DNA from: Spirosoma sp. 48-14
GTDB taxonomy: Bacteria > Bacteroidota > Bacteroidia > Cytophagales > Spirosomataceae
Length of the DNA: 64,000 nt
Direction: 5' to 3'
Assembly (NCBI RefSeq): GCF_001898575.1
Contig: NZ_MKUD01000010.1
Coordinates: forward strand, 124,001 to 188,000
Shown: positions 7,202-16,145 of the stretch, piece after piece
Layout: each line of letters opens with the position of its first letter
How positions within the stretch are numbered: position 1 is the stretch's first letter
Notes under the pieces: model-generated
Database searches by the model: none
The model's input: only the letters and a program-made list of their open reading frames with translations
What the model was told of the DNA's origin: nothing
Translations under genes and position numbers: made by a program

Positions 7202-10200
7202 ATGATGGCATCTACATCACGACTTTTCAAGGGTAATCGATTCGTAGTTGGGTTGCTTATTTTAGGCTTCCCCTCCCTGGTTTTGGGTCAGTCCAACTAT
7301 GCTGTTACAACGCCTAACTCGGTCACTCCTGGTAATTTCAATACATTGGTTGGGCCGTTTGCCGGGAATAGCTCCATGCGTGGATTGTATAACGTATTTA
7401 TGGGGTATAATGCTGGCCAGTCGACCACAACAGGCTATTATAATGTCTTTATGGGGTTTGGAACCGGACAGGCCAACACAACGGGTTCTCAAAACACATT
7501 TGTTGGTATAAATGTCGGTGCCAATAACACGATTGGTTCTCAGAATGCTATTGTAGGGGGGTATGCTGGGCAGTTCAACACAACTGGCTTTTCAAATTCA
7601 TTTTTAGGCTCATACGCTGGATATAGCAATACGATCGGCTCTCAGAATGTGTTCCTGGGTACGTATGCTGGGTATACCAACCTGACTGGCGTCGACAATG
7701 CGTTTGTCGGTAGCTTTGCCGGGTATAGAAGTACAGGCTCACAAAATGCGTTTGTCGGTAGCTTTGCCGGGTATAATAATTCGACTGGTGCCCGAAATGC
7801 GTTTTTAGGATTTAATGCGGGGCGGGCCGGTACTACTGGATCACAGAATGTATTTATTGGAACGGAAGCAGGCTTTAGTACGACTACAGGCTCCTATAAC
7901 GCATTCAACGGGTATCGTGCCGGATATAGTAATACAATTGGTGCCCAAAATGTATTTGTGGGAGAGAGTACTGGCTTCAACAATACAACCGGACTTAATA
8001 ATACATTTATCGGAAATACATCAAGCTTCTCGAATACAATAGGGTCGAATAACGTATCGGTTGGTATCCGGGCAGGCTACAGCAATCTGTCGGGTTCTAA
8101 TAATGTGTTAGTTGGGGATTCTGCGGGTTATGCAAACACGGTAGGCAATAATGTGTTCATCGGTTCTAAAGCTGGCTTTCTGAATCAGATTGGGGCACAA
8201 AATACGTTTATCGGTTTCCAGTCAGGTTACAGCGCCACAGCCGGGCTCAATACATTTGTTGGTTATTTATCCGGCCGTGCCAATACGACCGGAACTCAGA
8301 ACACTTTTTTAGGCGCTACTGCTGGTCGAAATACGACAACGGGTTCTTCCAACTTATTTGTGGGCGATAGCGTAGGGCAGGCAAATACAGTTGGGCGATT
8401 CAATACGTTTCTGGGTAGCCGGAGTGGCTTTCGTAACGTAAGCGGAGAAGGTAATACATTTATCGGTCAGCAGACTGGGTTCTCCAATGCAACCGGACTT
8501 AACAATACCTTTATTGGTAATGCGTCGAGTTTCTCCAACACAACCGGTTCGAACAACATATCGGTTGGTATCCGGGCAGGCTACAGTAATGTGGCAGGTT
8601 CGAATAATGTACTAGTTGGTGACTCTGCGGGTTACACCAATACAGTGGGCAATAATGTGTTTATCGGCTCTAAAGCTGGTTTTCTGAATACAGTCGGGCT
8701 TCAAAATACGTTTATCGGTTTCCAGTCAGGTTATAGCAGCACAGCCGGCGTCAATACATTTGTTGGTTATTTATCGGGCCGCGCTAATACGACCGGAACT
8801 CAGAACACCTTTCTAGGGGTAACCACTGGGCGAAGTAATACAACAGGCTCCTCTAACCTGTTTGTAGGCGATAGCGTAGGGCAGGCAAACACCGTGGGGC
8901 GCTTTAATACGTTTCTGGGGAGTCTTAGCGGGTTTCGCAATGTAACTGGCGAGAGTAACGTTTTTGTGGGCCAGCAAACGGGTTATAGTAATCTATCTGG
9001 GATAGGAAACACGTTTATTGGCTATAATACGGGATATGCGAATACGACTGGTTATAGCAACATCGCTCTGGGGATTCGCGCCAATTATGCCAATACCACA
9101 GGGCATAATAATGTGATGATTGGTGATTCGGCTGGTTATAGTAATTCAAATTCAGGAAACGTTTTTGTAGGGTCTAAAGCAGGATACGCTACCACGTCAG
9201 GTGGGCTTAATGTGTTTGCTGGTAATCAAGCTGGAATTAAAAATAGCACGGGCGGCTCCAACTCCTTTTTTGGTAACCTGTCTGGCTTCAATAATACGTC
9301 CGGTAGTGGAAATACTTTTGTTGGTGATAGCACAGGTTACACAAACAATAGTGGCTCCCGAAATACATACATAGGGCAACGGTCTGGATTCATCGGTAAT
9401 GCAACAGGTACGAATAATGTGTTTATTGGTTATGCTGCCGGTATTAATGCCGCAAATACCAGCATCACCAATTCAGCTGCTATTGGTGCCAATGCTATTG
9501 TTAATCAGAGTAATTCAATTGTATTGGGCGGTACTGGAGTCAACTCAGTGAGCGTTGGCATAGGCAATACAGCTCCCAATGCTAAACTGGAGATTACATC
9601 ATCGACATCTGGGGTGAGTGGTTTACGCTTTACCAACCTGACATCAGACTTTGTACCAACAGGTACGGTCACGAAGGTTTTGACGGTCAACGCAAACGGT
9701 GATGTATACCTGGCTAATGTAGCGTCAGGTACTGTTGTATCGACAACGGTTGTCTCTACTTCTGTCGTTAGCAATACAAATGTTGCTACCAGCGACAATC
9801 TATGGCTGCGCCAGAATGGGAATTTGTTTCCAGTTCGGGACGATGCTGTTGTGATTGGTGCTTTGGTTACTAAGATACCTGTTGGCTATAAATTGTACGT
9901 ACAAGAGGGTATTTTAACCGAAAAAATCAAAGTGGCTATCAAAAACTCGGCCGAATGGAGCGACCATGTATTCGAACCCAGTTATCGACTGAAAAGTCTG
10001 AGTGAAGTTCAGCAATTCATACAACGGAATAAACATTTGCCAGGTATACCTTCTGCGAAAGAAATGGTAGAGCAGGGGAACGACCTCCATAAAACTGATG
10101 CCAAGCTGCTGGAAAAAATAGAAGAACTAACCTTGTACAGTATCCAGCTTGAAAAAGAAAATCAGGAGCAGCGAACAGTTAACCAGGAGCAGGAGAAGAA

Positions 10201-10279
10201 GCTTAAGTCAGTAGAGGAAGAGTTGCAAAGTTTGAAACAGATGGTTCAACAGCTATTGCAGAAATCGGATAAAAAGTAA
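7202..10279 (+). CDS. Long repeat protein (beta-roll/YadA-head-like 17-aa repeats) with C-terminal tail-fibre-like and coiled-coil region
   Basis: N-terminal signal peptide; about 40 units of consensus NTTGSxNxFhGxxAGYS; C-terminal KIKVAIKNSAEWSDHVFEPSYRLKSLSEVQQFIQRNKHLPGIPSAKEM plus a Glu/Lys/Leu-rich coiled coil. Confidence 0.88.
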   Translation: MMASTSRLFKGNRFVVGLLILGFPSLVLGQSNYAVTTPNSVTPGNFNTLVGPFAGNSSMRGLYNVFMGYNAGQSTTTGYYNVFMGFGTGQANTTGSQNTFVGINVGANNTIGSQNAIVGGYAGQFNTTGFSNSFLGSYAGYSNTIGSQNVFLGTYAGYTNLTGVDNAFVGSFAGYRSTGSQNAFVGSFAGYNNSTGARNAFLGFNAGRAGTTGSQNVFIGTEAGFSTTTGSYNAFNGYRAGYSNTIGAQNVFVGESTGFNNTTGLNNTFIGNTSSFSNTIGSNNVSVGIRAGYSNLSGSNNVLVGDSAGYANTVGNNVFIGSKAGFLNQIGAQNTFIGFQSGYSATAGLNTFVGYLSGRANTTGTQNTFLGATAGRNTTTGSSNLFVGDSVGQANTVGRFNTFLGSRSGFRNVSGEGNTFIGQQTGFSNATGLNNTFIGNASSFSNTTGSNNISVGIRAGYSNVAGSNNVLVGDSAGYTNTVGNNVFIGSKAGFLNTVGLQNTFIGFQSGYSSTAGVNTFVGYLSGRANTTGTQNTFLGVTTGRSNTTGSSNLFVGDSVGQANTVGRFNTFLGSLSGFRNVTGESNVFVGQQTGYSNLSGIGNTFIGYNTGYANTTGYSNIALGIRANYANTTGHNNVMIGDSAGYSNSNSGNVFVGSKAGYATTSGGLNVFAGNQAGIKNSTGGSNSFFGNLSGFNNTSGSGNTFVGDSTGYTNNSGSRNTYIGQRSGFIGNATGTNNVFIGYAAGINAANTSITNSAAIGANAIVNQSNSIVLGGTGVNSVSVGIGNTAPNAKLEITSSTSGVSGLRFTNLTSDFVPTGTVTKVLTVNANGDVYLANVASGTVVSTTVVSTSVVSNTNVATSDNLWLRQNGNLFPVRDDAVVIGALVTKIPVGYKLYVQEGILTEKIKVAIKNSAEWSDHVFEPSYRLKSLSEVQQFIQRNKHLPGIPSAKEMVEQGNDLHKTDAKLLEKIEELTLYSIQLEKENQEQRTVNQEQEKKLKSVEEELQSLKQMVQQLLQKSDKK
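7985..9500 (+). repeat. Tandem super-repeat: blocks of ten 17/16-aa units with 504-bp period (three copies, the third diverged)
   Basis: Equivalent Gly codons at 7991, 8495 and 8999 (504 bp apart). Blocks 1 and 2 nearly identical: IRAGYSN..GSNNVLVGDSAGY.NTVGNNVFIGSKAGFLN...NTFIGFQSGYS. Confidence 0.9.
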
Positions 10280-14162: not shown

Positions 14163-16145
14163 GTGAAGGCACTTTACGTTACGGCTATATTGTTTTTGTA
14201 CTATTTTACCACATCAGCTCAGGTAGTTTTCCTGCAGATGCCGCGTCCTTACCAGCTTTTTCCCCGAAATGCTAATAATCAGGCCGAAGTAGTAATTAAT
14301 GGTATTAATTATACGCCCTGGTTTACAAAGCTAACCATGGAAGTATGGCGCGAAGACTCATTAATTAATGTTCAAACCAAAACGCTGACCCCTGACGTAG
14401 ATAGTACACTGTTTCGTTTTTCATCGATTATTAAAGCAGAGCGTGCTGAATATACATTTAAAGTGTATGCTTACACACAGACAGACTCATCGCTAATCGC
14501 CAATCAAAATGGAGTGGTTTGCGGAGATTTCTTTATCATTCATGGTCAATCCAATGCGTTAGCACTAGCTCAACTCGAAGAATATTACTCGTATAGTTTT
14601 GATGATAAATACCTGCGGAATGCTGGATATTCAGCCGGCGAATCGCCTGATAAGATAGCCTGGTATCCAGCAAAACAACCGTATGCGAGTGTAGGCGGGT
14701 TGGGGCTGACGTTACAACGATTGATTTTACAGTATTACGGTATACCAACCTGTGTGCTTAATGGAGCAAAAGGAGGAACAGGTATTGACGCGTTGATGTT
14801 GCGTGATCCCAATAACCACGCCAATCCGTATACGATCTATGGTGATTTGCTATATCGGGCACAATGGGCAGGTGCTGCCAAAATAGCAAAGGCTATAATC
14901 TGGCGGCAGGGGGAGGAGGATGCGGGCACGGGCACGAAAAACTATCCCGGAAAGTTTGCTACGCTCTATAACCAGTTTCGCGAAGATTATGGAGATATGC
15001 GTATCTATGTGGGCCAGATCAATATCCTGAGTAATGCCAATCCACAGGATAGTGCGGCTGCGTTGCGCGATTTTCAACGCCGAACGAAATATTTATTCAA
15101 GAATGTCGAAACCATTGCTACGGTCGGAACCCCTGGGTACGATGGCGTACACTATGAACCGTTAGCCTATCAACGTCTTGCCTTCGAACAGTTCCGGCAG
15201 ATTGCCCGTGATGTTTATGGTTCAACGGATACGCTCCAGATTAATTCGCCCGATATTAAACGAGTATTTTATAATGTCCAGAAAGATTCTGTGACGATGG
15301 AATTTACGGATCAGGTACTCTGGAAGAATGATACTACCTTTTTCAATTTTGCAACGGGACAGGTTTTGGTAACTCGTTACCAGAAAGATTATTTTTACCT
15401 CGATGGTCAATCGGGGTTTGTTAAGACGGGTACACCCAATGGCAACAGGGTAAAACTCGCCCTGAGCCAGCCTGTTACCGCAAAACGACTGCGGTATTTA
15501 CCTGCCTTTTTCTCCGATGATGTGTCGGCTTTTTACGATGGCCCCACACTCCGAAATGCACGAGGGATGCGGGCATTTTCGTTCGACGTCCCAATTGCCG
15601 ATGCTATTGCTACCGTTACAACACTAGCTGCCAAACCGTTATCCGAAAAGCAGATTCAACTGAACTGGGTGGCCTCGGCTGGGTCCGATGTGCAGATTCT
15701 GGAGCGTTCAGATACTGTAGCGAACCGATTTAAGCAGATTGCTGTGTTAAACGGAACGACCAATACGTTTACCGATCCAAATCTACCCAATATGTACGGT
15801 ACGTATTACTATCGGCTTCGTGCTTATAGTAGTGCGTCGGAGTCGGTATACAGTAACGTTGTCAAGGCACAGCCATTGATTCTGGGAGTAGAGCCCAACG
15901 AGCTGCAGGTACAGCTTTATCCGAACCCGGTAGTCGCCGATCGGATGCTTCATGTGGAGGCTGACCAGATTACGTTTACTGACCTGGTACTACGGGATGG
16001 TATTGGTCGGGTGGTGAAAAACTGGCACGGAAATGCCAGAAACTCGTTCTCCCTGAGTGTAGCAGACCTTAGTGCTGGTATGTATATCGTCGATTTACAA
16101 ACCACTGAAGGTTATTCTGTGCGTCGAAAACTGATCATTCGATAA
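14163..16145 (+). CDS. Secreted SASA/DUF303-type carbohydrate (sialate) O-acetylesterase with T9SS type A C-terminal domain; GTG start
   Basis: Signal peptide; SGNH-like block FFIIHGQSNALALAQ and DxxH block YDGVHYEPLAYQRLAFEQF; C-terminus YPNPVVADRMLHVEADQ...LSAGMYIVDLQTTEGYSVRRKLIIR. Confidence 0.85.
   Translation: MKALYVTAILFLYYFTTSAQVVFLQMPRPYQLFPRNANNQAEVVINGINYTPWFTKLTMEVWREDSLINVQTKTLTPDVDSTLFRFSSIIKAERAEYTFKVYAYTQTDSSLIANQNGVVCGDFFIIHGQSNALALAQLEEYYSYSFDDKYLRNAGYSAGESPDKIAWYPAKQPYASVGGLGLTLQRLILQYYGIPTCVLNGAKGGTGIDALMLRDPNNHANPYTIYGDLLYRAQWAGAAKIAKAIIWRQGEEDAGTGTKNYPGKFATLYNQFREDYGDMRIYVGQINILSNANPQDSAAALRDFQRRTKYLFKNVETIATVGTPGYDGVHYEPLAYQRLAFEQFRQIARDVYGSTDTLQINSPDIKRVFYNVQKDSVTMEFTDQVLWKNDTTFFNFATGQVLVTRYQKDYFYLDGQSGFVKTGTPNGNRVKLALSQPVTAKRLRYLPAFFSDDVSAFYDGPTLRNARGMRAFSFDVPIADAIATVTTLAAKPLSEKQIQLNWVASAGSDVQILERSDTVANRFKQIAVLNGTTNTFTDPNLPNMYGTYYYRLRAYSSASESVYSNVVKAQPLILGVEPNELQVQLYPNPVVADRMLHVEADQITFTDLVLRDGIGRVVKNWHGNARNSFSLSVADLSAGMYIVDLQTTEGYSVRRKLIIR

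Follow-up and report, generated by a model that had tools for sequence, protein, structure and literature searches.

The locus and its conservation

The window, that is, the whole stretch of 64,000 nucleotides of Spirosoma sp. DNA that was analysed, carries on its forward strand an open reading frame (7202-10279) which runs from ATG to stop and encodes 1025 amino acids. It is flanked by an MGT-type glycosyltransferase gene and a WecA-like gene, and is located where the surface-glycan cluster begins or ends, that is, at the edge of the cluster that the initial annotation had placed next to it and which occupies approximately 10.3-41 kb of the window. The upstream flank is composed of an RND efflux pump, TolC and a small lipoprotein-like gene. 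The following features were assigned:

7202..10279, forward strand: 1025-aa fibre-type protein, whole coding sequence (open reading frame; syntenic orthologues in two further species)
7202..7288, forward strand: signal-peptide-like N-terminus, aa 1-29, ending ...VLG/Q, without lipobox (sequence)
7340..9466, forward strand: repeat head, aa 47-755, about 42 units N-x-F-h-G-x-x-A-G-Y-S-N-T-T-G-S-x of 17 aa, some of 16 (periodicity; 3s6l fold match; phage virion/tail-spike families)
7952..8455, forward strand: 168-aa duplication, copy 1 (self-comparison of the repeats)
8456..8959, forward strand: 168-aa duplication, copy 2 (mostly ~72-92% DNA identity)
9470..9595, forward strand: transition, with shorter YadA-like units (NSAAIGANAIVNQSNSIVLG) and a VGIGxxAPxxKLEI capping-loop-like motif (alignment to Bd2133)
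9596..9955, forward strand: variable linker with short strands (AlphaFold2 model, low pLDDT around model residues 211-227)
9956..10138, forward strand: uncatalogued C-terminal domain, aa 919-979 (WSDHVF...HLPGIPS...KIEELTLY), comprising three short helices and the first part of a long one (alignment, models)
10085..10273, forward strand: long helix, predicted coiled coil, aa 962-1024 (AlphaFold2 models; heptad pattern)

Orthologues occupy the same place in two genomes of the same genus, with lengths of 1025 and 1021 aa and dN/dS ratios against the window copy of 0.046 and 0.113. With length and synteny both kept, the open reading frame is a genuine conserved gene under purifying selection. Identity between the orthologues amounts to 95-96% in the N-terminal head and to 92-99% in the C-terminal domain, and in the more distant orthologue it falls to 72% in the middle repeats and 47% in the last ones, a divergence which looks like the segmental exchange of repeats. 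As for the N-terminus, earlier read as a signal peptide, it is indeed signal-peptide-like, and a heuristic search recognised such a start in 69 of 79 homologous open reading frames and a lipobox in none of them.

The repeat head

The periodicity of the head is far above chance, since 279 identities at a lag of 17 residues were counted in the protein, whereas 500 shuffled sequences gave 80 on average and 102 at most. Between aa 47 and 755 the anchor residues of consecutive units are spaced by 17 aa in 33 cases and by 16 aa in six, so that the former description of some 40 units of 17 residues, occasionally 16, is borne out with a count of about 42. Ten of these units form a tandem duplication of 168 aa (aa ~251-418 and 419-586). 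In addition, a three-unit element, NVxxGDSAGxxN...NVFxGSKAG, is conserved amid variable repeats in 12 of 35 repeat proteins and may mark a specialised site of the fibre. It occurs three times in the window protein, at aa ~285-330, 453-498 and 621-666 (positions ~8054-8191, 8558-8695 and 9062-9199), and also in the proteins of loci L023, L026, L028, L029, L030, L035, L055, L072, L076 and L099.

Neither Pfam, its head models included, nor NCBIfam contains a family matching the repeat head. In PHROGs, the repeats match virion and tail-spike families with E-values down to 4.5e-65. An AlphaFold2 monomer model of aa 640-1025, built with 60 homologues in the alignment, showed one short strand per 17 residues at a mean pLDDT of 77.7. 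When this model was compared with 350,542 PDB chains by Foldseek, the first four ranks were taken by the YadA-like head of BoaA (3s6l), matches that are weak by E-value (0.084-0.63) with probabilities of up to 0.99. These matches favour, if weakly, the likeness to YadA heads proposed in the initial annotation. A fold search of a viral library returned, from E 6.5e-5, fibres of phages and giant viruses labelled as YadA-like or as intramolecular-chaperone proteins.

The resemblance to the trimeric autotransporter adhesins (YadA/BoaA heads, type Vc) goes beyond the fold match, as the G-x-x-N/S-h-x-h-G repeat logic and the presence of a coiled coil are also shared. Nevertheless, the units measure 17 aa instead of the approximately 14 aa of those adhesins, the coiled coil stands at the extreme C-terminus, and the YadA anchor barrel (PF03895) is missing from both the 1025-aa protein and the whole source genome.

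The transition and the relation to MAT fibres

The best match of the protein among PDB sequences, by profile, is the Bdellovibrio fibre Bd2133 (8ond, E 4.2e-8), with EibD as a weak match in the same search; together with the phage fibres, these support a fibre-type kinship of the repeat protein. The transition stretch aligns, at the level of sequence, to Bd2133 NVGIGATAPTAKLEV, and the alignment runs through VGIGxxAPTxxLEV. Bd2133 brings in the mosaic adhesive trimeric (MAT) proteins of Bdellovibrio, which form trimeric fibres on the surface of the predator, end in S74 or in various other tips, and have a conserved, beta-rich domain of ~130 aa directly after the signal peptide (PMC10769870). 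Much is held in common with them: bacterial encoding, a signal peptide, a length of around 1000 aa, the VGIGxxAPTxxLEV shaft region, a large paralogous family and varied ends. On the other hand, the 1025-aa protein has a 17-aa YadA-like head and a helical C-terminal domain not described among MAT tips, and its repeats begin ~17 aa past the signal peptide. A start of the repeats at aa 47 leaves no room for a separate ~130-aa domain and, therefore, the protein was not classed as a member of the MAT family, but only as MAT-like in its working.

The C-terminal module

The end of the protein had been described as a tail-fibre-like segment followed by a coiled coil. The coiled coil stands, as a long C-terminal helix with heptads, but the first part of the description does not, because nothing in 50,697 phage records matches the segment; moreover, the segment and the start of the coiled coil are one continuous domain, so that the division between them falls as well. 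This module has the consensus WxDxVF...HLPxxPS...KIEELTLY, and the residues W, D, VF, Y, LP, P, G, K and EELTL were invariant across 66 diverse sequences. A monomer model of aa 880-1000 reached a pLDDT of 91.8 and consists of three short helices and then the long one, the heptads of the module running on into the coiled coil. The core pattern has I or N at one heptad position and Leu at the other, and would fit a dimer as well.

No match that counts was found for the module in Pfam, NCBIfam, PDB sequences or PDB folds, and its motif strings were not encountered in the literature searched. The same literature yielded nothing on a 'TMF family protein' in Bacteroidetes or on a 'tail fiber domain-containing protein' in Flavobacterium, and no matching proteome was found among its abstracts.

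The position of the module invites comparison with the S74-chaperone fibres and spikes of phages, such as the K1F endosialidase and the L-shaped fibre of T5, which share the repeats and carry their C-terminal folding module in the equivalent place. They differ from the 1025-aa protein, which bears a signal peptide and in which, as in the whole source genome, Peptidase_S74 (PF13884, SDxxxK) has no match; the module, in turn, is absent from the phage records. It is conceivable, if rather unlikely, that the module arose from the S74 chaperone by degeneration, losing the cleaving activity and keeping by descent the same role that is proposed below. Such an ancestry would agree with the shared position after VGIGxxxPxxKLxVxG segments, with an [SA]-D pair in the module where S74 has S-D, and with a profile alignment between both families that reaches a probability of 71-75% with the coiled coil included. 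Nevertheless, once the coiled coil was removed, the probability given by hhalign dropped to 7%, with 2 of 100 column shuffles scoring higher; of 66 sequences, 41 have Ser and 25 have Ala in front of the Asp; and the fold search of the module over the PDB found no S74 structure. The nearly null control and the lack of a fold match are the reasons why S74 descent is kept only as a rival to the reading preferred here, namely, a trimer-nucleating module.

Distribution of the family

The source genome encodes 13 paralogues, on eight contigs, all of them with a signal-peptide-like start, repeats, the transition motif and the C-terminal domain. They look like exported needle-like fibres, akin to the tail fibres of viruses and to bacterial adhesins. 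The neighbouring paralogues L021 and L022 (contig C9 of this genome, ~164-175 kb) have a near-identical repeat and transition stretch, which suggests gene conversion between them, and transposase-like genes lie in between.

All 32 near-complete genomes of the genus contain the module, in 2-52 copies each, as do 55 of 297 genomes sampled across Bacteroidota. The highest copy number belongs to a single genome of the genus (G363), whose 52 copies, compared with 2-5 in many relatives, represent a strong lineage-specific expansion. In the genome collection the module occurs in at least 570 stretches, and the 80 loci that were retained are all labelled Bacteroidota or Chlorobi-side relatives. Its place is close to the C-terminus, in proteins both with and without the 17-aa repeats, at least five repeats being found in 16 of 56 open reading frames. 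It is a C-terminal domain of the Bacteroidota, widespread in the phylum and absent from the reference catalogues searched.

Export and anchoring

The initial annotation had noted neither a YadA barrel nor a T9SS C-terminal domain, and both are in fact missing. The T9SS type A and type B sorting models do not match the 1025-aa protein, and none of the 13 paralogues has a type A tail, in a genome with about 50 type A matches, 43 of them over the cut-off. There is some common ground with T9SS substrates bearing type A or B C-terminal domains, since the host has SprA in addition to those tails and the module is a conserved C-terminal domain on proteins with signal peptides. It differs in being helical and in lacking a match to the sorting models.

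This raises the doubtful but not negligible alternative that the module represents a further class of signals for outer-membrane sorting or anchoring, which the T9SS or a linked shuttle would read, the coiled coil being only a tether. The T9SS handles C-terminal domains of more than one class (PMC12618676), and the module is found near the extreme C-terminus of signal-peptide-bearing proteins of very different make-up. Furthermore, SprA was detected in all 55 module-bearing genomes among the 297 (P = 1e-7 at genome level) and in 48 of 50 further ones, the two exceptions carrying many T9SS tails. However, this test is confounded by phylogeny: at genus level the association has a P of 0.22, and proteins with S74 domains show the same bias towards SprA (86 of 87). 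Co-occurrence with SprA was consequently rejected as proof of export by the T9SS, since the SprA-negative genomes belong mostly to one family and the S74 proteins are equally biased. The helical nature of the module also stands against this alternative, as the type A signals of known structure are beta-sandwiches (PMC4804311, PMC12618676). A bolder version, in which the module would be an undescribed outer-membrane export or anchoring signal, possibly a T9SS class, that displays trimeric fibres, its bearers being the Bacteroidota counterpart of the MAT and trimeric autotransporter adhesins, is likewise held to be improbable.

At the S74 locus of another Bacteroidota genome (L155), an S74 fibre protein ends in what by eye resembles a T9SS type A tail. 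Some S74 fibres of Bacteroidota may possibly, on the strength of this sequence, be T9SS substrates.

The neighbouring glycan cluster

The polysaccharide encoded next door had been suggested as the means by which the fibre is attached to the surface. That the fibre should be held by this polysaccharide, or work with it, appears very improbable to us. The order of the MGT-type glycosyltransferase and WecA-like genes is conserved around the gene in two close species, and one further region, that of L021 and L022, places two paralogues beside glycosyltransferases. Against this, the paralogues are scattered over their eight contigs, and glycosyltransferases were found near 1 of the 12 other paralogue loci, compared with 5 of 40 random stretches, two counts obtained by phmmer with window queries which are both likely to be underestimates, given that the GT2-like genes visible by eye at L028 were missed. 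The placement of the paralogues shows no enrichment near glycosyltransferases, and attachment through the neighbouring glycan was rejected on this basis, in keeping with the refuting condition named in the initial annotation (homologues positioned at random with respect to glycan loci). Besides, in close relatives the RND/TolC side is kept together with the glycan side, so that vertical inheritance accounts for the neighbourhood, which shows no functional link. As a separate observation, the cluster includes at 14163-16145 (forward strand) an SGNH/sialate-esterase-like protein of 660 aa, whose T9SS type A tail is encoded at 15915-16139.

Most improbable of all is a phage-derived structural protein, i.e., a prophage or tailocin fibre instead of a cell-surface protein, for even though phage fibres commonly contain such repeats (they occur in 52 phage records) and the module is present in contigs labelled viral, the protein carries a signal peptide, it is surrounded in the window by genes of efflux, glycan and housekeeping functions, every near-complete genome of the genus has its 2-52 copies, and the absence of the module from the 50,697 phage records speaks against such an origin for the C-terminal part. 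The viral-labelled contigs in question (L033-L037, from IMG/VR) carry the fibre family with signal peptides, and may be stretches of bacterial DNA that were classed as viral on account of the likeness between the repeats and phage fibres.

Proposed working and significance

On balance, we lean towards an exported fibre adhesin which would work like the MAT and phage fibres, and in which the uncatalogued C-terminal module probably nucleates trimers where others carry S74. According to its signal peptide, the 1025-aa protein would be exported by Sec. The 17-residue repeats would then fold into a YadA-like beta-roll, as the fold matches indicate, which is probably arranged as a homotrimeric needle, and this head would end in the VGIG-x-x-x-P capping-loop-like region common to the Bdellovibrio MAT fibres. 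Finally, the module, with its small helices and coiled coil, most likely nucleates and registers the trimer in the place of S74. Since it stays constant across very different N-terminal architectures, the module may be regarded as the common assembly part, and the repeat heads as the variable, probably adhesive, part; its constancy in variable fibres and its continuation into the coiled coil make the nucleation of trimer assembly its most likely role. In this sense we infer the trimer, the surface display, the adhesion and the role of the module.

What stands out is a very conserved C-terminal domain without a counterpart in Pfam, NCBIfam or the PDB. The source genome has no YadA-anchored trimeric autotransporter. 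The fibre family belongs to the core of the genus (32 of 32) and is distributed over the phylum, which makes it a good candidate for the fibre adhesins of Bacteroidota.
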